Source: Alkalibacterium sp.
GTDB taxonomy: Bacteria; Bacillota; Bacilli; Lactobacillales; Carnobacteriaceae_A
Direction of reading: 5' to 3'
DNA: 56,264 nt
NCBI GenBank assembly: GCA_020832185.1
Contig: JAFIFE010000024.1
Location: 1 to 56,264, forward strand
Shown here: positions 1-10,078 of the stretch, one piece after another
Layout of the letters: each line of letters starts with the position of its first letter
Position numbering within the stretch: position 1 is the stretch's first letter
Notes under the pieces: model-generated
Database searches by the model: none
What the model saw: the letters and a program-made list of their open reading frames with translations, nothing else
What the model was told of the DNA's origin: nothing
Made by a program: the position numbers and the translations under genes

Positions 1-142
1 TACCTCCAGTTAAAGTGTAGGAACTCTAACTTTAGAGGATTTTCAGGTGCCTCGCAATGGCTTTTTATATTGCGTTTTGCCGTCCGCAGAGTTGTGTACT
101 TTCACCCTGCAATCTTATGTATTTTTATCTTGCCATAAACAC
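1..142 (-). mobile_element. possible mobile-element edge (group II intron-like) interrupting the aldo/keto reductase gene
   Basis: Read on the minus strand, the reductase frame keeps family resemblance up to about position 143, after which the sequence stops looking like coding DNA. From 142 the minus strand reads GTGTTTATGG and then a run that folds into small hairpins: 105-110 with 86-91 (better on minus-strand RNA because of a G-U pair), 69-74 with 53-58 (perfect 6 bp) and 32-37 with 24-29 (perfect 6 bp). A structured non-coding RNA beginning GTG inside a gene suggests the 5' end of a group II intron, but the usual GUGYG start is not exact and the rest lies outside the window. An insertion sequence end is the alternative. 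Confidence 0.25.
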
Positions 143-391
143 ATCATAACTTACCTTATCCACCCATACTTTTGTCGTGACAAAAAGGTCATCGCGAGCC
201 ACGCCAGAATTAGTGATTCCTTGACCAACCGCTTCTTCATTCATGTAGCTCTGTGCAGTGTCGATATGGCGATAACCCGCTTTAATCGCCTCTATTACTG
301 ATTTTTCAGCTTCTTTCGGATCAGTGATTTGGAAGGTTCCAAATCCTAAAATGGGTACTTCGATACCGTTAGAAAGTTTTACAGTTTTCAT
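125..391 (-). pseudogene. aldo/keto reductase, truncated after the N-terminal third
   Basis: The first 80 or so residues are a clear aldo/keto reductase N-terminus: the opening strand with VPILGFGTF, then [10 protein letters not shown] carrying the catalytic Asp and Tyr, and VTTKVW carrying the catalytic Lys. Family members are about 270-280 residues; this frame stops at 88. The (beta/alpha)8 barrel is incomplete and the catalytic His region is missing, so no active enzyme is expected unless an intron is spliced out. The start is supported by a GGAGG eight bases upstream of ATG 391. A MerR-type promoter with a 19-bp spacer lies directly upstream (435-465). The ending is non-homologous (VFMAR then stop), consistent with an insertion at about position 142. 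Confidence 0.75.
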
Positions 392-2601: not shown

Positions 2602-3309
2602 TTATCTTTCACTAGCTAATAACTCTTTTACTTCTTCAAGTTCATTTAAATATCCCATGATAGATAAAGTATCCCCTTTACGTACTTTGGTATCAGCTTT
2701 TGGATTAAAAATATATTCATCAGTGCCAGCTCGAAGCATTCCTAGAATGATTGCCTTAGAGGTCACTAATTTCTGTATACTTTCAAAGTCCTTATTAATA
2801 AATCCAGACCGATCATCAATGATAAACTCTTCAACAAGTAGTTGTTCCTGGTCGTTTTTAGTCAGCAGATTCAAAGAATGAGATAGCGATGGCTTCTCTA
2901 TATGTGCTAACATCCGGTCCGAGATTAATCTGTCCATCATTAGAACTTTTTTTACCCCTGTTTTCTTTAAGTTTCTATAAGCTTCTTTTCCTGATGCCCC
3001 ACATACAATATCTAGGGATGAATCTAATTCTTGTACCGAAAAAACGGTATAAAGTACTTCACTGTTATTTGAATAGGTAATAACAATTCCTTGGGAATTT
3101 TTTATACCTGCTTCCATCAATGTATCGGCATTTTTAGCATTACCACAAACATGTGGTTCACTCAGTCTTTCTAACTGCTTACATTTCTTTTCATCTTTTT
3201 CAATAAAAACATATTCCTGATCATGGATTTTTAATTCAGCGGCAATTCTTTTTCCTAACTTACCATAACCACAGATAATGTATTTATTTGGGTAATTTTT
3301 AGAGTTCAT
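2602..3309 (-). CDS. stand-alone RCK/TrkA-type NAD-binding regulatory protein
   Basis: An N-terminal Rossmann fold with the dinucleotide motif GYGKLGKRIA at about residues 14-23 and an acidic residue after the second strand (VFIEKDE) marks a TrkA-N (RCK_N) domain. The last third (FINKDFESI to the KGDTLSIMGY motif) is a TrkA-C (RCK_C) domain. Such proteins sense nucleotides (NAD, ATP/ADP or c-di-AMP) and gate cation transporters. No transmembrane segment and no KtrB/TrkH channel gene is nearby; the closest membrane partner is the DUF1538 protein at 4050-5552. The start at 3309 leaves ten bases to the AGGAGGT site, whereas ATG 3318 would be almost touching it. It is the last gene of the PII/DUF1538 cluster. 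Coupling to DUF1538 is inference from position. Confidence 0.8.
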   Translation of the reverse strand: MNSKNYPNKYIICGYGKLGKRIAAELKIHDQEYVFIEKDEKKCKQLERLSEPHVCGNAKNADTLMEAGIKNSQGIVITYSNNSEVLYTVFSVQELDSSLDIVCGASGKEAYRNLKKTGVKKVLMMDRLISDRMLAHIEKPSLSHSLNLLTKNDQEQLLVEEFIIDDRSGFINKDFESIQKLVTSKAIILGMLRAGTDEYIFNPKADTKVRKGDTLSIMGYLNELEEVKELLASER

Positions 3310-3394
3310 ATTGCTCATACCTCCTAAAAGTAATAAATATATATCAGAACACTGGTAATTGTATAAATAGCTTCCTTACTGTTATGGAAAACAA

Positions 3395-4057
3395 CTAGTA
3401 AATACCATACACATTCAATGCATTTTGGGTATATATGATCCCATTACCTGGTTTATTTATTTTAAGTTTTTCACTTATAGACGATATAATAGATTCTGTA
3501 CTATCATTTTTGGCTAAAATAATTACCATTTCTTTTTCAGGTTCTATTTCCATATTGAAAAGTTTTGTTGTTTCATCCACCCCAGAACCTCTTGCATTAA
3601 TAATGGTTCCTCCTCTTGAGCCGGCACTTTTTGCTGCCTCTACAACATCGTCTGCCTTTCCTCTATCGACAATCGTCACAATAATCTGGTAGAGCGGCTG
3701 ATCAACCACTTGGCTTTTGCCTTGCTTGAGGATACTTGACCGAGAACCTATAACTTCAACTGTACTCGTAGTAAAAGCAATACCATGATGGGGTCTATCA
3801 AACTTAAATTTCTTGTTTAATTTATTCAATGTATTTCCTGCAATCTCACGATTAGCAATCATTAAAACTACTTCTTTTTTTTCATCATACAAGGATAAAA
3901 AATTTAAAAAGGGATTAATGATTGTACCTTTCCCTAAGAGAATTGTTCCACCGGAAACACCACATGTCTTAGCCTGACGCAGAACCTTTGTACCCATTCC
4001 ATGATTCACTATGACATAAATTAAATCGTATATTTTAACACCATCTAGACTACTCAT
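3395..4057 (-). CDS. tandem two-domain PII-like signalling protein
   Basis: A 220-residue protein made of two PII-like (GlnB-superfamily) domains. Domain 2 (about 121-220) is almost a copy of the single PII protein at 5628-5930, with SRGGTIINARGSG, FNMEIEPEKEMV and NKPGNGIIY. Domain 1 (about 8-105) keeps VSGGTILLGKGT and RPHHGIAF but lacks the NARGSG segment, so it has diverged in the nucleotide/T-loop region. PII domains normally trimerise and bind ATP/ADP with a small effector, then block or open membrane transporters. No classical uridylylated T-loop Tyr is seen. Its start lies inside the DUF1538 gene end (ATGAGTAG, eight-base overlap), so the two are translationally coupled, which supports a direct partnership. 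The effector is unknown. Confidence 0.85.
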   Translation of the reverse strand: MSSLDGVKIYDLIYVIVNHGMGTKVLRQAKTCGVSGGTILLGKGTIINPFLNFLSLYDEKKEVVLMIANREIAGNTLNKLNKKFKFDRPHHGIAFTTSTVEVIGSRSSILKQGKSQVVDQPLYQIIVTIVDRGKADDVVEAAKSAGSRGGTIINARGSGVDETTKLFNMEIEPEKEMVIILAKNDSTESIISSISEKLKINKPGNGIIYTQNALNVYGIY

Positions 4058-5552
4058 CTGTTTCTACATCCCCTTTCCGTTTCGATCTAATTGAGAAAAT
4101 CACACCTAGCATCTGTAAAGTAATTATAGGCATCATTGCTGCCATGGCAATCATACCAAAACCGTCTATAATGACGTCTGCCCCTTCAAATGCACCCGCT
4201 GCTCCTTGAATAAATGCCAGGATAAATGTTGCAGTCATTGGACCCGTTGCCACTCCACCGGCATCAAAGGCAATTCCCACAAACAGTTTTGGTGTAAAAA
4301 ACATTAGCCCTAAGCTTATTAAATAACCTGGTAATAAGTAATGCCACAATTGAATAGAAGGAACTAATATACGAATGACCGACAGTAACACTGCTCCTCC
4401 TACACCAGCTGACAATGAAACTAAAACAGCAGGCCGTTTGACATAACCACTCGTGACATCTTCAATTTGCTGAGTCAGTACGTGAACAGCCGGCTCAGCT
4501 AAAATAGTCGCCACACCTAAAATAAACCCAATTATGAGTATATAGACTTTGTTATCAAGTAATGCTAAATCATTCCCAATAGCAGTACCCACATCCATGA
4601 ATCCAGCATTGACTCCTACCAAAAAGATTAATAATCCGATAAAAGAATAAAGAAACCCTGTGAGTAATTTACGAAACTCTTTTTTCTTCAATTTAAAGAC
4701 TAGTTTCTGGAGAATCAGCAAAATCATTAATACTGGGAGAATGGCTATAAAGCTTTCCAGTATATATGTTGGTGTCATCTCTATAAACGGCTGAAGGATA
4801 GTTTGTGTTTCAATCACTTCCGTCTCAATCCCAGCTGATAACGGCTCTGAATTAGATACTATCTCGAGAATTAAAACGGATATGATGGCTCCTGTAGATG
4901 CTATAGCGATCAAACCGAAACTGTCTTTTTCTGAAGCTTTCGTATCCTTTTTCAGTTTAGAGATACCTACAGAGAGAGACAATATAAAGGGAACAGCTAG
5001 TATCCCCGTAGTAGATCCAGAAGCATCAAACGCAATAGCCAGAAATTCACGAGACGCAAATAAAGCTAAAATAAAAATAGTTAAGTATAACGCTACAAGT
5101 ATTTTAAACAGTGGAATGTTATAAAATATTCTAAGGAATCCTAAGGCTAACAATAGGGCTAAACCTAAAGAGACAACAATTAAAATTCTTGTTCCTGCTA
5201 TTTGACCAGAAGTGACACTTTCAACTTGATTGGCCAGCACCAGCAATCCAGGTTCTGCAATAGATATAAAAAAACCAAGGATTACTCCTGATGTTAATAC
5301 AATCCATAGCTTATTAGTCTTAGCTAAAGACTTCCCTGTATAATTTCCTAATGGAGTAATACCAAGATCTATTCCCAACAAAAAAATAGTCAAGCCAACT
5401 ATGACGGATAAAGCACCAATAAGGAACCGAGTAATATAGATAGAATCCATTGGAACAATGGTGAAATTTAATAGTAGCACTAAGAATATAATTGGCAAAA
5501 CAGCAAATAATACTTCCTTTAGTTTGGAGTTAGCAATATTCAACACAGTCAT
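4050..5552 (-). CDS. DUF1538 family integral membrane protein, internally duplicated (putative transporter)
   Basis: A 500-residue, very hydrophobic protein with two homologous halves. Motifs recur at a constant offset of about 253 residues: AEP at 99 and 352, E(S/D)VTSG at 111 and 364, AFDA(S/G)G at 174 and 428, and FG(L/M)IA(I/M)A at 212 and 465. Conserved acidic residues and Gly-rich bends inside membrane segments are what one expects of an ion or substrate pathway, so a secondary transporter is likely; the substrate is not known. Flanking genes encode PII-like proteins, the second overlapping its stop codon, and an RCK protein follows. The annotated ATG touches an AAAGG site; GTG at 5546, six bases further on, is an equally good start. 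The family was uncharacterised to my knowledge. Confidence 0.85.
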   Translation of the reverse strand: MTVLNIANSKLKEVLFAVLPIIFLVLLLNFTIVPMDSIYITRFLIGALSVIVGLTIFLLGIDLGITPLGNYTGKSLAKTNKLWIVLTSGVILGFFISIAEPGLLVLANQVESVTSGQIAGTRILIVVSLGLALLLALGFLRIFYNIPLFKILVALYLTIFILALFASREFLAIAFDASGSTTGILAVPFILSLSVGISKLKKDTKASEKDSFGLIAIASTGAIISVLILEIVSNSEPLSAGIETEVIETQTILQPFIEMTPTYILESFIAILPVLMILLILQKLVFKLKKKEFRKLLTGFLYSFIGLLIFLVGVNAGFMDVGTAIGNDLALLDNKVYILIIGFILGVATILAEPAVHVLTQQIEDVTSGYVKRPAVLVSLSAGVGGAVLLSVIRILVPSIQLWHYLLPGYLISLGLMFFTPKLFVGIAFDAGGVATGPMTATFILAFIQGAAGAFEGADVIIDGFGMIAMAAMMPIITLQMLGVIFSIRSKRKGDVETDE

Positions 5553-5627
5553 CCTTTCTTAAATTTTAATACAGTGGCTATTTTTAATGAAAATGATTCT
5601 ATAGCCATACTCATTAGATATCACATA

Positions 5628-5930
5628 TTATTCAAACATACCGTATACTTCATTTATGTTTTGAATAAAAATAACTCCTTTACCTGGCTTATCAATTTCT
5701 ACTTCTTCTCTTATTGATGAAACAATTGATTCAGTGGAATCAGAATTAGACAGAATATAAACCATTTCTTTTTCTGGTTCAATCTCCATATTGAAAATTT
5801 TATTGGTTTCGTGAATTCCTGATCCTCTTGCATTGATAATTGTTCCACCTTTTGAACCAGCCAATTTGGCAGCATCAATGACATCTTCTGCTCTTCCTCG
5901 ATCGACAATAGTAATAATCATTTGGTACAT
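5628..5930 (-). CDS. single-domain PII-like signalling protein
   Basis: 100 residues forming one GlnB-type domain: ferredoxin-like start MYQMIITIVDRG, then SKGGTIINARGSG, FNMEIEPEKEMVYIL and the B-loop-like KPGKGVIF near residue 81. It is slightly shorter than GlnB (112) with an unusual short T-loop (GIHETNKIF) that lacks the canonical Tyr51, so regulation by uridylylation is unlikely. It is first in the cluster, 75 bases before the DUF1538 gene, and closely resembles the second domain of the fused PII protein. AAAGGAG nine bases upstream supports the start. Probable role: binding a nucleotide and regulating the DUF1538 transporter. There is no adjacent amt or glnA, so a nitrogen role should not be assumed from family name. 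Confidence 0.85.
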   Translation of the reverse strand: MYQMIITIVDRGRAEDVIDAAKLAGSKGGTIINARGSGIHETNKIFNMEIEPEKEMVYILSNSDSTESIVSSIREEVEIDKPGKGVIFIQNINEVYGMFE

Positions 5931-5969
5931 TTAGGCCTACTCCTTTCCTGACGATTATTGATTCTCTTT

Positions 5970-6000
5970 ATTATACACTCTATTTTTCTAACTTTACCAA
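5970..6000 (-). promoter_or_regulatory. likely promoter of the PII/DUF1538/RCK cluster
   Basis: On the minus strand a perfect TATAAT box occupies 5970-5975, preceded immediately by TG, with TTGGTA at 5995-6000. The 19-base spacing is longer than the usual 17, so the -35 assignment is weak; the -10 is good. It lies about 40 bases before the first PII start. Confidence 0.45.
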
Positions 6001-6071
6001 TCTTTTGAGAGCCTATACACAATGGTGTTATATAAATGCTCAGCTTATTACAGTTGTTCATTATAATTTAA

Positions 6072-6107
6072 ATACCAGCGCATCTATTTTCATAGAAACT
6101 CTGGTAT
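6072..6107 (-). terminator. terminator after rlmD
   Basis: ATACCAG (6072-6078) pairs with CTGGTAT (6101-6107), with an inner CTAT/ATAG pairing. It lies just past the stop codon of the rRNA methyltransferase on the minus strand and is followed by a weak U-rich stretch. Confidence 0.5.
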
Positions 6108-6137
6108 CTAAGTCTGACTATAATATATACTTTTTTG

Positions 6138-7520
6138 TTATAGCGATAGCTTAACTACGCTCTCCACATGTGAAGTCTGTGGGAACATGTCTACTGGTTG
6201 AACTTTTTCAACAGTGTATCCACCTTCAACTAGCAAGGCTAAATCGCGCGCAAGAGTTGATGGGTTACAACTGACGTAAACCATTTTCTTCGGCTGCATT
6301 GTCAGTACGGCATCGATGAATTGTCCATCGAGTCCTTTTCTTGGAGGATCGACAACAAGCAAATCAGCTTTACGGTCCTCTTTGCTCCATTCCAGCATGA
6401 CGTCTTCAGCTGCTCCAACTTGATAAGTCACGTTCGAAATATCATTAAGCTCAGCATTTCGTCTGGCATCTATAACAGCTGGTTCGATCAGTTCGATTCC
6501 ATAAACGTGTTTCGCTTTTTCAGCTAAAGCAAGTGTAATTGTTCCAATCCCACTATAGGCATCAATAACTGTTTCTTCTCCAGTCAGTTCCGCAAATTCT
6601 AAAACTTTACTGTATAAGACTTCTGCCTGCAAAGTATTGACCTGGAAGAACGACCGATGGGAAATTTCAAATGTGTGACCTAATAATTTGTCCTGATATT
6701 TATCTTCTCCGTGAAGCACGATGACTTCTTGACCGAGAATCACATTCGTCTTCTTAGGATTTACGTTTTGAACGATACTGACCACTTCAGGGAGTGCCTC
6801 CAGGATATCTGGAACAATTTTGCTGTGTGGGAACAGTTTAGGCGTTCGCGTAACAAGAACAATCATCATTTCTCCAGTATGATACCCACGGCGAACAAGG
6901 ATATGACGCAGATTTCCGGTATTATCTTTTTCGTTGTAAGGTTTCACATTGTATTTACGCATAATGTCACGAACGACTACAACGGCTTTATCGATTTCCG
7001 GATCCTGGATTTTAAAATCTTCCATCGGAATCAAGTCGTGGCTGTTTTTTCTGAACACGCCTGTTTCCAGGTTTTCTTTGATTTTTCGGACAGGAATCTG
7101 AGCTTTGTTACGGTAGCCAAACGGCTTATCCATTCCAATAACATCGTTAACTTCTACGTCCGGTAATTTACCTATTTTAGTCAGGACATTTTCAACCTGA
7201 TTCTTTTTAAACGTCAATTGCGCTTCATAAGTCAGATGCTGCAATGGCATTGTCCCTGTCTGAGCATACGCTTTATCTTTCACTTCCACACGGTCTGGGC
7301 TTTGTTTCGTTATTTTAATAAGCTTCCCTACACCAAAGCTTTTGCCTATTTTAATGACTTTAAATTCGACTGTCTCATTAATAAGAGCTCCTTCAATAAA
7401 TAGTGGATACCCTTCTACTTTAGCTATGCCTAATCCTTCATGTGTTAAATCGATCACTTCTGCTTCGAGTACATTATTTTTTGCAACGGGTGCAGATTGT
7501 TTATTCGTATTATTCGTCAT
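6138..7520 (-). CDS. rlmD: 23S rRNA (uracil-5-)-methyltransferase, RlmD/RlmCD (TrmA) family
   Basis: An N-terminal TRAM RNA-binding domain (about residues 15-75, with the LTHEGLGIAK strand) is followed by the methyltransferase domain. The SAM-binding VIDAYSGIGTITLALA, VVDPPRKGLD and the nucleophile segment VSCNPSTLARDLALL with its catalytic Cys are all present. About 460 residues, normal for Gram-positive RlmCD/YefA, which makes m5U at 23S positions 747 and 1939; which of these this enzyme modifies cannot be told. The start at 7520 has GAGGAG seven bases upstream; the upstream ATG 7535 overlaps that site. It lies downstream of dagK, but a strong terminator (7576-7610) separates them, and a TATACT box near 7553-7558 may give its own promoter. 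Confidence 0.9.
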   Translation of the reverse strand: MTNNTNKQSAPVAKNNVLEAEVIDLTHEGLGIAKVEGYPLFIEGALINETVEFKVIKIGKSFGVGKLIKITKQSPDRVEVKDKAYAQTGTMPLQHLTYEAQLTFKKNQVENVLTKIGKLPDVEVNDVIGMDKPFGYRNKAQIPVRKIKENLETGVFRKNSHDLIPMEDFKIQDPEIDKAVVVVRDIMRKYNVKPYNEKDNTGNLRHILVRRGYHTGEMMIVLVTRTPKLFPHSKIVPDILEALPEVVSIVQNVNPKKTNVILGQEVIVLHGEDKYQDKLLGHTFEISHRSFFQVNTLQAEVLYSKVLEFAELTGEETVIDAYSGIGTITLALAEKAKHVYGIELIEPAVIDARRNAELNDISNVTYQVGAAEDVMLEWSKEDRKADLLVVDPPRKGLDGQFIDAVLTMQPKKMVYVSCNPSTLARDLALLVEGGYTVEKVQPVDMFPQTSHVESVVKLSL

Positions 7521-7575
7521 TACACGTCTCCTCATTTATCTGGTCTATTCTCAGTATACACTGGGTTTGGGCATT

Positions 7576-7610
7576 AAGAAAGCGCACAGGGACTATCTGT
7601 GCGCTTTCTT
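7576..7610. terminator. strong terminator between dagK and rlmD
   Basis: A 14-bp inverted repeat (AAGAAAGCGCACAG with its complement) closes a short loop immediately after the dagK stop codon. T-rich ends are present on both sides. It should end the gat-dagK transcript before rlmD. Confidence 0.8.
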
Positions 7611-7613
7611 CTC

Positions 7614-8621
7614 TTATTCGTCTTCCAATTGGGAGACCCCTTGTATAAATTCACTTTCTTTTTCAATGGTTACAGCGTCACGGCTATCTATCGCCAAGTG
7701 CATGCGTTTAATATCCGCCACGAGTTCCATGTGCTGCTGGTACATAATAAATTCAACGGGTGCGTCTCCACCGTATTCTCCATCAATATTGATCATCAAT
7801 TGCTGATCGTTTATGGTTTCAGCAATGACTTTGGATGTTTTAGTATAAATCACTTTAGGGTGATTCACGTGTCTGCCATCATTCAAAATCATAGTGAGTA
7901 GTCGGAGTATTTCAACGATATTGGTCGTTTTTACGATAATCAGGGTGAATTTGCCATCCCCGAGTCGTTTATCGGGTGCGATTTTTTCAAATCCGCCCAC
8001 AGAGTTTGTCAGTGCAACGAATATAATCGATGCTGTGCCTTCATAAACCCCTTCATCATAAGTGACTCTGACAGGTACTTTTCCAACCCGCGGCAGCAAT
8101 TCAGCACCTTTGACAAAGTAAGCGAGAGATCCAAATATCGATTTCATATTTGCAGGGACATCATAAGTTAGCTCAGTAAGAGACCCGGCTGCCCCAATAT
8201 TCATAAAGTAACGTTCCTGCGTAGCTGTAATAGCTTTCCCGATATCCATTTTAATAAACTGATGTGTGTTGATCAGTTCGGCCGCTTTGACGTAATCGTT
8301 GCGGGGTATTTTCAATGCTCGAGCATAATCATTAGTCGTTCCGGATGGAATGATTGCCAGTTTAGGACGGGTGGAATGAGGGGCAATTCCATTAATCACT
8401 TCATTGATCGTCCCATCCCCACCTGCAGCAATGATTAAGTCGAATCCGTCTTGGGTGCAGCGGTCAGCTTCATTTTGAGCACTTAATTCAGCCGGCGTTG
8501 TACAGAAGGCGCTGGTTTCATATCCGCATTGTTCATAGACATTTAATATATCTGGTATTGCCCGTTTAAGTGTTTCTCTTCCAGATGTAGGGTTGTAAAT
8601 GATTCTGGCTCGTCGCCTCAT
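7614..8621 (-). CDS. dagK: diacylglycerol kinase (lipid kinase family)
   Basis: 335 residues with the diacylglycerol/sphingosine kinase catalytic layout: IIYNPTSGRE near the N-terminus, the nucleotide motif GGDGTINEVINGI at residues 67-79 and LAIIPSGTTNDYARAL further on. In Firmicutes DgkB/DagK (B. subtilis YerQ) phosphorylates the diacylglycerol released when phosphatidylglycerol feeds lipoteichoic acid synthesis, returning it to the phospholipid pool; this fits the LtaS-family gene at 31990. It follows gatB by about 23 bases with GGAGGGG ahead of its ATG, in the conserved gatCAB-dagK order. The C-terminal acidic tail (SQLEDE) is unremarkable. Confidence 0.92.
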   Translation of the reverse strand: MRRRARIIYNPTSGRETLKRAIPDILNVYEQCGYETSAFCTTPAELSAQNEADRCTQDGFDLIIAAGGDGTINEVINGIAPHSTRPKLAIIPSGTTNDYARALKIPRNDYVKAAELINTHQFIKMDIGKAITATQERYFMNIGAAGSLTELTYDVPANMKSIFGSLAYFVKGAELLPRVGKVPVRVTYDEGVYEGTASIIFVALTNSVGGFEKIAPDKRLGDGKFTLIIVKTTNIVEILRLLTMILNDGRHVNHPKVIYTKTSKVIAETINDQQLMINIDGEYGGDAPVEFIMYQQHMELVADIKRMHLAIDSRDAVTIEKESEFIQGVSQLEDE

Positions 8622-8644
8622 ATACGTCCCCTCCTTTGCCTTTA

Positions 8645-10078
8645 CTATCTTTTATCAAGCTCTTCTTTTAATAGTTTGTTCACCATACCCGGATTTGCCT
8701 GACCTTTAGTTTGTTTCATGATTTGACCGACTAAAAATCCTAATGCGCGGTCTTTTCCGTTTTTGTAGTCTTCAATCGACTGCTCGTTTTTATCGAGTGT
8801 CTCTGAAATGATAGGAATAAGTTTGGATGGGTCACTTAATTGAACCAGTCCTTTTTCTTCAACGAATACTTTCACATCATCGCTGCCTTTAGTCACTAAC
8901 TCTTTAAAGACTTTTTTGGCAATCTTAGACGAAATCGTTCCGTCAGCAATCAAATTGATCATTTCTGCTAATGCTTTAGGTGTCAGTGCAGTATCAAGCA
9001 ATTCGATCTGCTCACTGTTTACATACGCTGAAACTTCTCCCATCAGCCAGTTAGAGGCTTGTTTAGGGTCTGCGCCATGCTCCACTGTTTCCTGGAAAAA
9101 GTCAGACATTTCTACTGTAGCTGTTAAAACGACAGCATCATATGCCGGCAGTCCGTATTCTTTTACGTAGCGTGCTTGTCTTTCTTTAGGCATTTCTGGA
9201 AGAGACTCTCTTGCTTCGCTGATCCATTCTTCACTGATTTCCAGGTTTGGAATATCTGGTTCAGGGAAGTAACGGTAGTCACTTGATCCTTCCTTTGTAC
9301 GCATAAGGAGCGTGCCGCCTGTCGTCTCGTCATAGCGGCGGGTCTCCTGCTGTAATTCTCCGCCTGCATTCAATACTTTCTCCTGACGATTGATCTCATA
9401 TTCCAGTCCTTTTTTAACATAAGAAAATGAGTTCAAGTTTTTGATTTCCGCTTTTGTCCCGAATTCTTCCTGACCAAACGGACGTAGAGAAATATTTGCA
9501 TCACAGCGCATAGAGCCTTCCTGCATTTTAACGTCAGATACTTTAGTAAATTGAATAAGCTGTTTAATGGTTTCAAGGTACGCATGAGCCTCTTCAGGTG
9601 AACGCATATCCGCTTCAGACACGATTTCAATTAGCGGGGTGCCCTGACGATTCAAGTCGACGTAAGAAGCGCCATCTTCTCCGTGCATATTTTTTCCGGC
9701 ATCTTCTTCTAAATGGACGCGCTCGATTCGGATTTTCTTCGTTTCGCCATTAACTTCGATCTCGATCCATCCATCATAGCCTATAGGCTGATCGAATTGT
9801 GAGATCTGGTAGGCTTTAGGATTATCCGGGTAAAAATAGTTTTTACGGTCAAACTTTGTGTGTGTAGCAATTTTACAGTTTAATGCTAACGCTGCTTTCA
9901 TTCCGAATTCGATTGCCTGCTTGTTTACGACAGGCAAGACTCCCGGATGACCCCAGTCGATCACATTTGTATTGGTATTGGGTTCAGCACCAAAATGAGC
10001 CGGGGATGGTGAAAACATCTTTGATTCTGTCTTCAATTCAACGTGGACTTCTAATCCTATAACTGTTTCTAAATTCAT
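8645..10078 (-). CDS. gatB: aspartyl/glutamyl-tRNA amidotransferase subunit B
   Basis: 477 residues, full length. The signature [16 protein letters not shown] opens the protein; [18 protein letters not shown] and the [10 protein letters not shown] motif of the amidotransferase core follow, and the C-terminal helical/YqeY-type tRNA-binding domain ends in the usual [16 protein letters not shown]. GatB binds the mischarged Glu-tRNA(Gln) (or Asp-tRNA(Asn)), activates it with ATP and receives ammonia from GatA through a tunnel. It starts three bases after the gatA stop, giving the compact gatC-gatA-gatB operon. Firmicutes lacking glutaminyl-tRNA synthetase need this enzyme for Gln-tRNA. Confidence 0.96.

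Follow-up and report, generated by a model that had tools for sequence, protein, structure and literature searches.

A PII-like gene recurrently paired with a DUF1538 antiporter-family gene in Alkalibacterium and other bacteria

The 56,264-nucleotide stretch of DNA analysed here (hereafter referred to as the window) is contig C17 (JAFIFE010000024.1) of Alkalibacterium sp. assembly GCA_020832185.1, which comprises 2.64 Mb in 28 contigs and is 95% complete. Four closely packed minus-strand genes of the window encode a single PII-like protein, a duplicated DUF1538 membrane protein, a tandem PII protein and a stand-alone RCK protein. The initial annotation, made from the sequence alone, read them as a transporter controlled by three sensor chains of two unrelated nucleotide-binding families, in a composition without a described counterpart. 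Open reading frame (ORF) coordinates bear out the packing, the gene order and the 8-base overlap that it reported, and Pfam supports the family motifs of all four genes, the N-terminal half of the tandem PII being assigned by similarity to its C-terminal half and by a structural model. Here we report that the pairing of DUF1538 with PII is real, widespread and, as far as our literature searches go, undescribed, that the transport function of DUF1538 is already in print, and that the four-gene composition is not a conserved unit. The features of the locus, with lengths in amino acids (aa), are as follows.

5628–5930, minus strand: single PII-like protein, 100 aa (ORF call; Pfam P-II, 1.2e-10)
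4050–5552, minus strand: DUF1538 protein, 500 aa, with two DUF1538 stretches (Pfam, 4.4e-132)
4860–5492, minus strand: UmpA-like half of the fused DUF1538 protein (Pfam/NCBIfam)
4098–4733, minus strand: UmpB-like half of the fused DUF1538 protein (Pfam/NCBIfam)
4914–4958, minus strand: conserved K/D/S-rich loop of the UmpA half, KLKKDTKASEKDSFG; putative PII docking loop
4050–4057, minus strand: 8-base overlap of the DUF1538 stop and the tandem-PII start (ORF coordinates and sequence)
3395–4057, minus strand: tandem PII protein, 220 aa (Pfam P-II in the C-terminal half, 1.9e-11)
about 3746–4036, minus strand: N-terminal domain of the tandem PII (Pfam and AlphaFold (AF2) model)
about 3398–3694, minus strand: C-terminal domain of the tandem PII (Pfam and AF2 model)
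3530–3610, minus strand: T-loop region of the C-terminal PII domain, aa 150–176, the most conserved part of the protein
2602–3318, minus strand: stand-alone RCK protein, 238 aa (TrkA_N, 3.4e-22; TrkA_C, 26.6 bits against a cut-off of 27)
2327–2368, no strand assigned: symmetrical hairpin of 19 pairs past the end of the RCK gene, terminator-like, with a T tail on the plus strand

The proposal that DUF1538 is the transporter holds at the level of the family, and this much was known before: its relatives UmpA and UmpB of Halomonas zhaodongensis form, according to PMC5484666, a hetero-dimer that catalyses pH-dependent Na+(Li+,K+)/H+ antiport with an optimum at pH 9.0. Both halves of the window protein match PF07556 over its length, giving the two modules characteristic of the family, and the best NCBIfam match is UmpA for the first half (4.8e-53) and UmpB for the second (2.5e-42). 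Because the scores fall short of the NCBIfam equivalog cut-offs (179.9 versus 490 bits for UmpA, 145.1 versus 500 bits for UmpB), the protein is a member of the family, not a proven equivalent of UmpA or UmpB. By analogy with these relatives, it is a predicted Na+(Li+,K+)/H+ antiporter. In its AF2 model (predicted local distance difference test score (pLDDT) 84.4, predicted template modelling score 0.83), helices break at the conserved AEP motifs and just after the FDASG and FDAGG motifs of the two halves. Foldseek returned no solved structure matching this model at E 0.001 (best 0.035), and the sequences of solved structures gave no match to DUF1538 up to E 1. The protein has K/R-rich segments at residues 198–212, 285–292 and 366–372 and an acidic segment at 233–252; positive-inside reasoning suggests that the K/R-rich segments are cytoplasmic. 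The K/D/S-rich loop of the UmpA half has a mean conservation of 0.90, versus 0.71 for the whole protein, and its positive net charge likewise suggests the cytoplasmic side.

To survey the gene neighbourhood of DUF1538, we used an 18-member DUF1538 alignment to scan genomes, one per species, and took the best 80 of 550 confirmed loci, a choice that biases this set towards near relatives of the window protein. A PII ORF of the same type adjoins DUF1538 in 79 of these 80 loci, overlapping or touching it in 73 and lying within 100 bases in 78. Upon a recount over 112 DUF1538 loci, a PII gene of this type is present in 107 (105 with stricter clustering). Among the five loci without one, L044 has a truncated DUF1538, three (L045, L060 and L062) are uninformative because the gene lies near a contig end, and L075 is a true exception. 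The survey proposed in the initial annotation thus finds PII recurring, with 107 of 112 loci and both genes in 100 of 299 genomes (see below), and RCK not, with 3 of 112 loci. The other recurrent neighbours, among them genes that by eye are ABC ATPase-like, LacI-type regulator-like, MATE-like and CPA2-like, were rejected as partners, as they occur on both sides and both strands; neighbour groups with a fixed side come from small sets of loci (8, 7, 5 or fewer), none near the 105 of 112 for PII. Two arrangements depart from a simple pair: L123 carries two DUF1538–PII pairs back to back (3624–8125), and L104 one DUF1538 followed by two tandem PIIs (6001–9004).

We also searched whole genomes in both directions, using PF07556 for DUF1538 and a PII profile (A2); as the PIIs that went into this profile are those next to DUF1538, it detects their subfamily only, not PII at large. 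In a class sample, DUF1538 exceeded the cut-off in 14 of 200 genomes, all 14 of which also had the PII, and all 14 pairs were adjacent by eye; the single occurrences were a weak PII match with an in-frame stop (G135) and a DUF1538 match below the cut-off (G158). In a phylum sample of 299 genomes, DUF1538 was found in 101 and PII in 101, with both in 100, each alone in one and neither in 197 (Fisher p 3.7e-78, which overstates independence because the genomes share ancestry). Adjacency was computed for the 82 of the 101 genomes with listed DUF1538 positions: PII lies within 1 kb in 80, with a median gap of 41 bases, and in G329, one of the remaining two, the pair is adjacent at a contig end. 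The recurrence across loci and the co-occurrence in both genome samples argue that the association is not due to chance. Moreover, over 103 pairs the distances of DUF1538 correlate with those of PII (Mantel r 0.90, 0 of 999 permutations). The company of PII extends from Bacillota to Flexilinea (Chloroflexota; loci L083 and L093) and to two plasmids of Alphaproteobacteria, from Chelativorans and Methylocystis, with the order umpA-umpB-PII. In 14 named control genomes, DUF1538 was found in none and a P-II protein in 13.

The two partners occur in fused and split forms. As read from open-frame lengths in the 14 class-sample genomes, with a profile check for L171 (G096) and L172 (G163) only, a fused DUF1538 gene accompanies a tandem PII in four (G000, G161, G206 and G221), split umpA and umpB genes accompany a tandem PII in six, and split genes accompany two consecutive PII genes in four. 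Elsewhere, L048 combines split genes with one PII, L061 has a tandem plus a single PII, and Vescimonas has a fused DUF1538 gene with a tandem PII. Furthermore, in two loci of one genus (L054, 4266–6107, minus strand; L052, 4694–6538, plus strand) a PII domain is fused to the C terminus of DUF1538, besides a tandem PII gene. Single-pass phmmer detects the fused domain at 3.9e-9 in L052 and 1.1e-9 in L054, and no other of the 109 DUF1538 proteins with 450 aa or more shows one. This natural fusion is the strongest hint that the two proteins touch, and, provided that the C-terminal region of DUF1538 faces the cytoplasm, it would place PII there too. A 609-aa DUF1538 protein in G313 was considered as a second fusion and rejected, since the PII profile does not match its extension and PII is encoded by separate genes there.

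The AlphaFold model of the tandem PII (pLDDT 81.8) has two halves of ferredoxin-like fold with a poorly predicted linker between them; in Foldseek, PII and GlnK structures rank highest, interspersed with some other proteins of similar topology. Pfam P-II recognizes the C-terminal half and the single PII above the cut-off, and leaves the N-terminal half unrecognized. The latter is a diverged PII domain, assigned by its 28% identity to the C-terminal half (blastp, 9e-14) and by the model. The C-domain T-loop has a mean conservation of 0.87, compared with 0.67–0.72 for the rest of that domain and 0.59–0.69 for the N-domain, as expected for a docking loop. We mapped the residues onto MJ0059 GlnK1 by alignment, with the accepted roles and numbering of the canonical PII residues (the B-loop lysine, the C-terminal arginine pair and the long T-loop). 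All 59 sequences keep T151, G157 and G159, which align with the adenine side of the pocket, as well as the B-loop glycines G204 and G206. The canonical B-loop lysine is replaced by I, V or L in all 59, the first position of the arginine pair is G218 in all 59, the second is mostly Y (R in six), and the T-loop is shorter than that of canonical GlnB/GlnK; on these features the protein is not a canonical GlnB or GlnK. The N-domain has a different T-loop and lacks the first B-loop glycine in 56 of 59. Since the adenine-side positions are invariant and the canonical lysine and arginines are replaced, an adenine nucleotide is a plausible ligand, bound otherwise than in the canonical ATP/2-oxoglutarate mode; the five invariant residues are suggestive, no more, of a trimer that binds such a nucleotide. 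The source assembly contains no other PII gene over the Pfam cut-off and no canonical GlnB or GlnK was found in it; one weak P-II match (21 bits; G000:C23:26261–26512) falls in a frame of 124 aa, whose product might, at a guess, be PstA/DarA-like.

The remaining two genes of the block look like local additions. RCK adjoins DUF1538 (within 3.5 kb) in 3 of 112 loci, namely the window, L035 and L116, the first two belonging to one lineage, and we rejected it as a conserved component. L035 (4735–7067, in the congener G007) is a decayed, 91%-identical copy of 2,338 bases spanning the C-terminal half of DUF1538, the tandem PII and RCK, in which the first half of DUF1538 is lost and an interruption close to its start disrupts the RCK frame; nearby is an ORF that by eye looks recombinase-like, and the same genome carries a PII-first copy, L036. 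In L116 (Tindallia), the RCK gene encodes an entire K+ channel that has two RCK modules and is 25% identical to the window RCK; in L063 and L065, RCK pieces lie some 5 kb off. The window RCK aligns over its full length with MthK RCKs (about 1e-9); it is about equally near to these and to the N-terminal part of one KtrA entry, and farther from other KtrA entries. Its closest relative within the source genome is a K+ channel (27%, 1e-23). No KtrB/TrkH gene, the usual though not strictly defining partner of KtrA/TrkA, lies nearby. The three TrkH-type K+ transporters found in the genome are on other contigs, each near an RCK gene of its own, which leaves the window RCK an orphan whose only visible partner is this operon; that is suggestive, and no more. 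One of these TrkH genes (G000:C26:17455–19950) lies next to two short RCK genes, of 151 and 221 aa, that look like a divided TrkA. The single PII is 68% identical to the C-terminal half of the tandem PII and 28% to the N-terminal half, and on this similarity it is probably a lineage-specific local duplicate of the former. The idea of three sensor chains from two families is therefore not supported as a system.

Taken together, the gene identities, the near-constant adjacency, the co-occurrence, the linked divergence, the fusion, the conserved T-loop and part of the nucleotide pocket lead us to propose, with a probability of roughly 0.7, that PII docks on the cytoplasmic face of the DUF1538 antiporter and gates it in response to an adenine-nucleotide-like ligand, on the model of the GlnK–AmtB and SbtB–SbtA pairs; ligand, docking and gating are what we infer here. 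The core would be a cassette of a UmpAB-type Na+(Li+,K+)/H+ antiporter and a dedicated PII sensor, with RCK and the single PII read as local additions. The PII modules would form a ring under the cytoplasmic face of the antiporter, with their T-loops docking perhaps on the K/D/S-rich loop of the UmpA half, and would block or release ion exchange according to the ligand held, so that PII control would tie Na+/K+/pH balance to the energy state. Opening by ATP and closing by AMP or ADP, following SbtB, is a guess. In PMC5484666, umpAB was assayed in Escherichia coli without a PII gene of its own and was functional, which makes PII look like a regulator rather than an ion-carrying subunit, with the qualification that E. 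coli itself is among the control genomes with a P-II protein. PII is thus probably a modulator of the antiporter. A more specific version is tentative, and we would not favour it at present: the UmpA and UmpB halves may be matched by the two unlike PII domains, the partners being fused or split, in a heteromeric PII ring coupling Na+/K+/pH to the nucleotide state, with the third PII and RCK added in this lineage.

Several observations weigh against PII gating of the antiporter. L075 has a complete DUF1538 and both neighbours on the contig, without a PII; in the phylum sample, G303 has DUF1538 matches without a PII of this type, G296 shows the reverse, and in G460 one contig carries DUF1538 and another the PII. 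The order of the genes varies, with DUF1538 first in 86 cases and PII in 17. Adjacency and correlated distances would also be expected from co-inheritance of an operon without contact between its products. The fusion was seen in a single genus, and its PII domain escapes Pfam P-II. Antiport is known for one distant, two-gene member of the family, and the window protein scores below both equivalog cut-offs. Finally, the canonical phosphate-binding residues appear to be lost, which would allow a different ligand, possibly even a metal ion.

PII proteins have many targets, and the PII could be an operon-mate that senses the same stress and acts elsewhere, on an enzyme, a transcription factor or another channel, as the separated genes of G460 and the PII-less L075 would allow. 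A multi-target regulator would, however, be expected to outlive loss of the antiporter more often than we observe: this PII subfamily occurs almost only where DUF1538 is (PII alone in 1 of 299 and 1 of 200 genomes), and the natural fusion in L052 and L054 points the same way, so that we hold action elsewhere to be distinctly unlikely. Somewhat less unlikely is a substrate other than Na+, Li+ or K+ for the DUF1538 proteins of this branch. Halomonas UmpAB is the only assayed member that we found, the window protein lies below the equivalog cut-offs and no solved fold matches its model; on the other side stands the shared two-half architecture, in which UmpA is the best-matching model for the first half and UmpB for the second.

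We give little credence to a working unit of all four genes, in which PII and RCK rings would both gate the antiporter. RCK does lie on the same strand, 76 bases past the tandem PII; it lacks another obvious partner, given that the three TrkH transporters have RCKs of their own; and the 91%-identical congener stretch keeps the C-terminal half of DUF1538, the tandem PII and RCK together. That stretch, however, lacks the first half of DUF1538 and has an interrupted RCK frame, the RCK pieces of L063 and L065 lie well away, and two of the three RCK-bearing loci are one lineage, the third encoding a complete K+ channel. Equally improbable, in our estimate, is that PII senses the transported or a toxic cation itself, in the manner of CutA or PII-NG, and not a nucleotide. 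The I, V or L aligned with the B-loop lysine would fit such a role, as would the clustering of PII-NG, a proposed metal sensor, with CzcABC proton/metal antiporters (PMC7726332), whereas the invariance of T151, G157, G159, G204 and G206 argues for a nucleotide.

As to the origin of the block, the relatives nearest to the window DUF1538 among the best 80 of 550 loci (L063–L066, from a Lachnospiraceae metagenome-assembled genome, Alkalithermobacter, Lacrimispora and Streptococcus plurextorum) share 73% identity with it, a copy from its own family (L037) shares 66%, and six copies from its own genus, all with the opposite gene order, share 46–47%. The RNA methyltransferase gene upstream of the block (Pfam; 6138–7535) is present in all 11 other congeners searched (L176–L186), in which no gene of the block follows it over the less than 500 to about 1,500 bases read; the ORFs downstream of it there differ, and the site is apparently variable. 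Most likely, the block was acquired sideways into this variable site. Spacers of 75 bases between the single PII and DUF1538 and of 76 bases between the tandem PII and RCK make one transcript of the four genes plausible; as read from the sequence, a T run follows the hairpin beyond RCK on the minus strand as well. Control by riboswitches of the c-di-AMP, Na+ and Li+ classes was rejected: the window has no Rfam match at the gathering score, and a scan of 25 of the 111 loci L032–L142 returned as its sole matches a RatA antitoxin RNA (L043, 5949–6034) and a fluoride riboswitch (L048, 8655–8728), both near DUF1538 loci. At window positions 125–391 there is an ORF of only 88 aa, aldo/keto-reductase-like by eye and apparently truncated.

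The view that no such system had been described stands in part: the antiporter has been described, and no paper on a link between PII and DUF1538/UmpAB was found in the literature searched, which did not extend to bioRxiv preprints or to most subscription papers. Neither PII nor P-II occurs as a word in the main texts of the Halomonas paper (PMC5484666), a growth-pH paper and two cable-bacteria papers. UmpAB of H. zhaodongensis shares with the window the DUF1538 family and the UmpA and UmpB halves, and differs in being encoded by two separate genes rather than one fused gene and, in PMC5484666, in having been assayed without a PII gene. The cyanobacterial pair of the Na+/bicarbonate symporter SbtA and the PII-like sensor SbtB is similar in being an operon of a Na+-coupled transporter and a PII-like protein. 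According to PMC10117731, SbtB sits under trimeric SbtA, an arrangement likened there to GlnK–AmtB, and T-loop docking in our case is proposed by analogy; the differences are that no solved fold resembles the DUF1538 model and that the window-type PII is mostly a tandem of unlike domains. Among PII subfamilies genomically tied to a proton/cation antiporter, the nearest case known to us is PII-NG with CzcABC, although the partner there is a metal pump and metal sensing is proposed (PMC7726332). GlnK–AmtB, whose complex 2ns1 is among the Foldseek matches, shares the PII fold; the window PII has a shorter T-loop and a replaced B-loop lysine, and no other PII gene exceeds the Pfam cut-off in its assembly. 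Linkage of a PII gene to a transporter gene, as in PII-gated transporter pairs, is observed for DUF1538–PII; physical docking and gating as in GlnK–AmtB and SbtB–SbtA are suggested only indirectly, by the natural fusion and the conserved T-loop. The KtrA and MthK RCK proteins resemble the window RCK, which aligns over its full length with the MthK RCK and also with a K+ channel of its own genome, and from which they differ in that the window protein has no pore, stands beside an antiporter instead of a K+ channel and is not conserved there. Two different PII subunits working as a pair are known from NifI1/NifI2, with the difference that their target is nitrogenase and their genes are separate. 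If the proposed gating is correct, a Na+/H+ antiporter family studied so far without its regulator has a dedicated sensor, for which the natural fusion offers structural work a ready-made object in a family without a recognizable solved fold, and PII control, known for the uptake of nitrogen and carbon, widens to include the balance of salt and pH.

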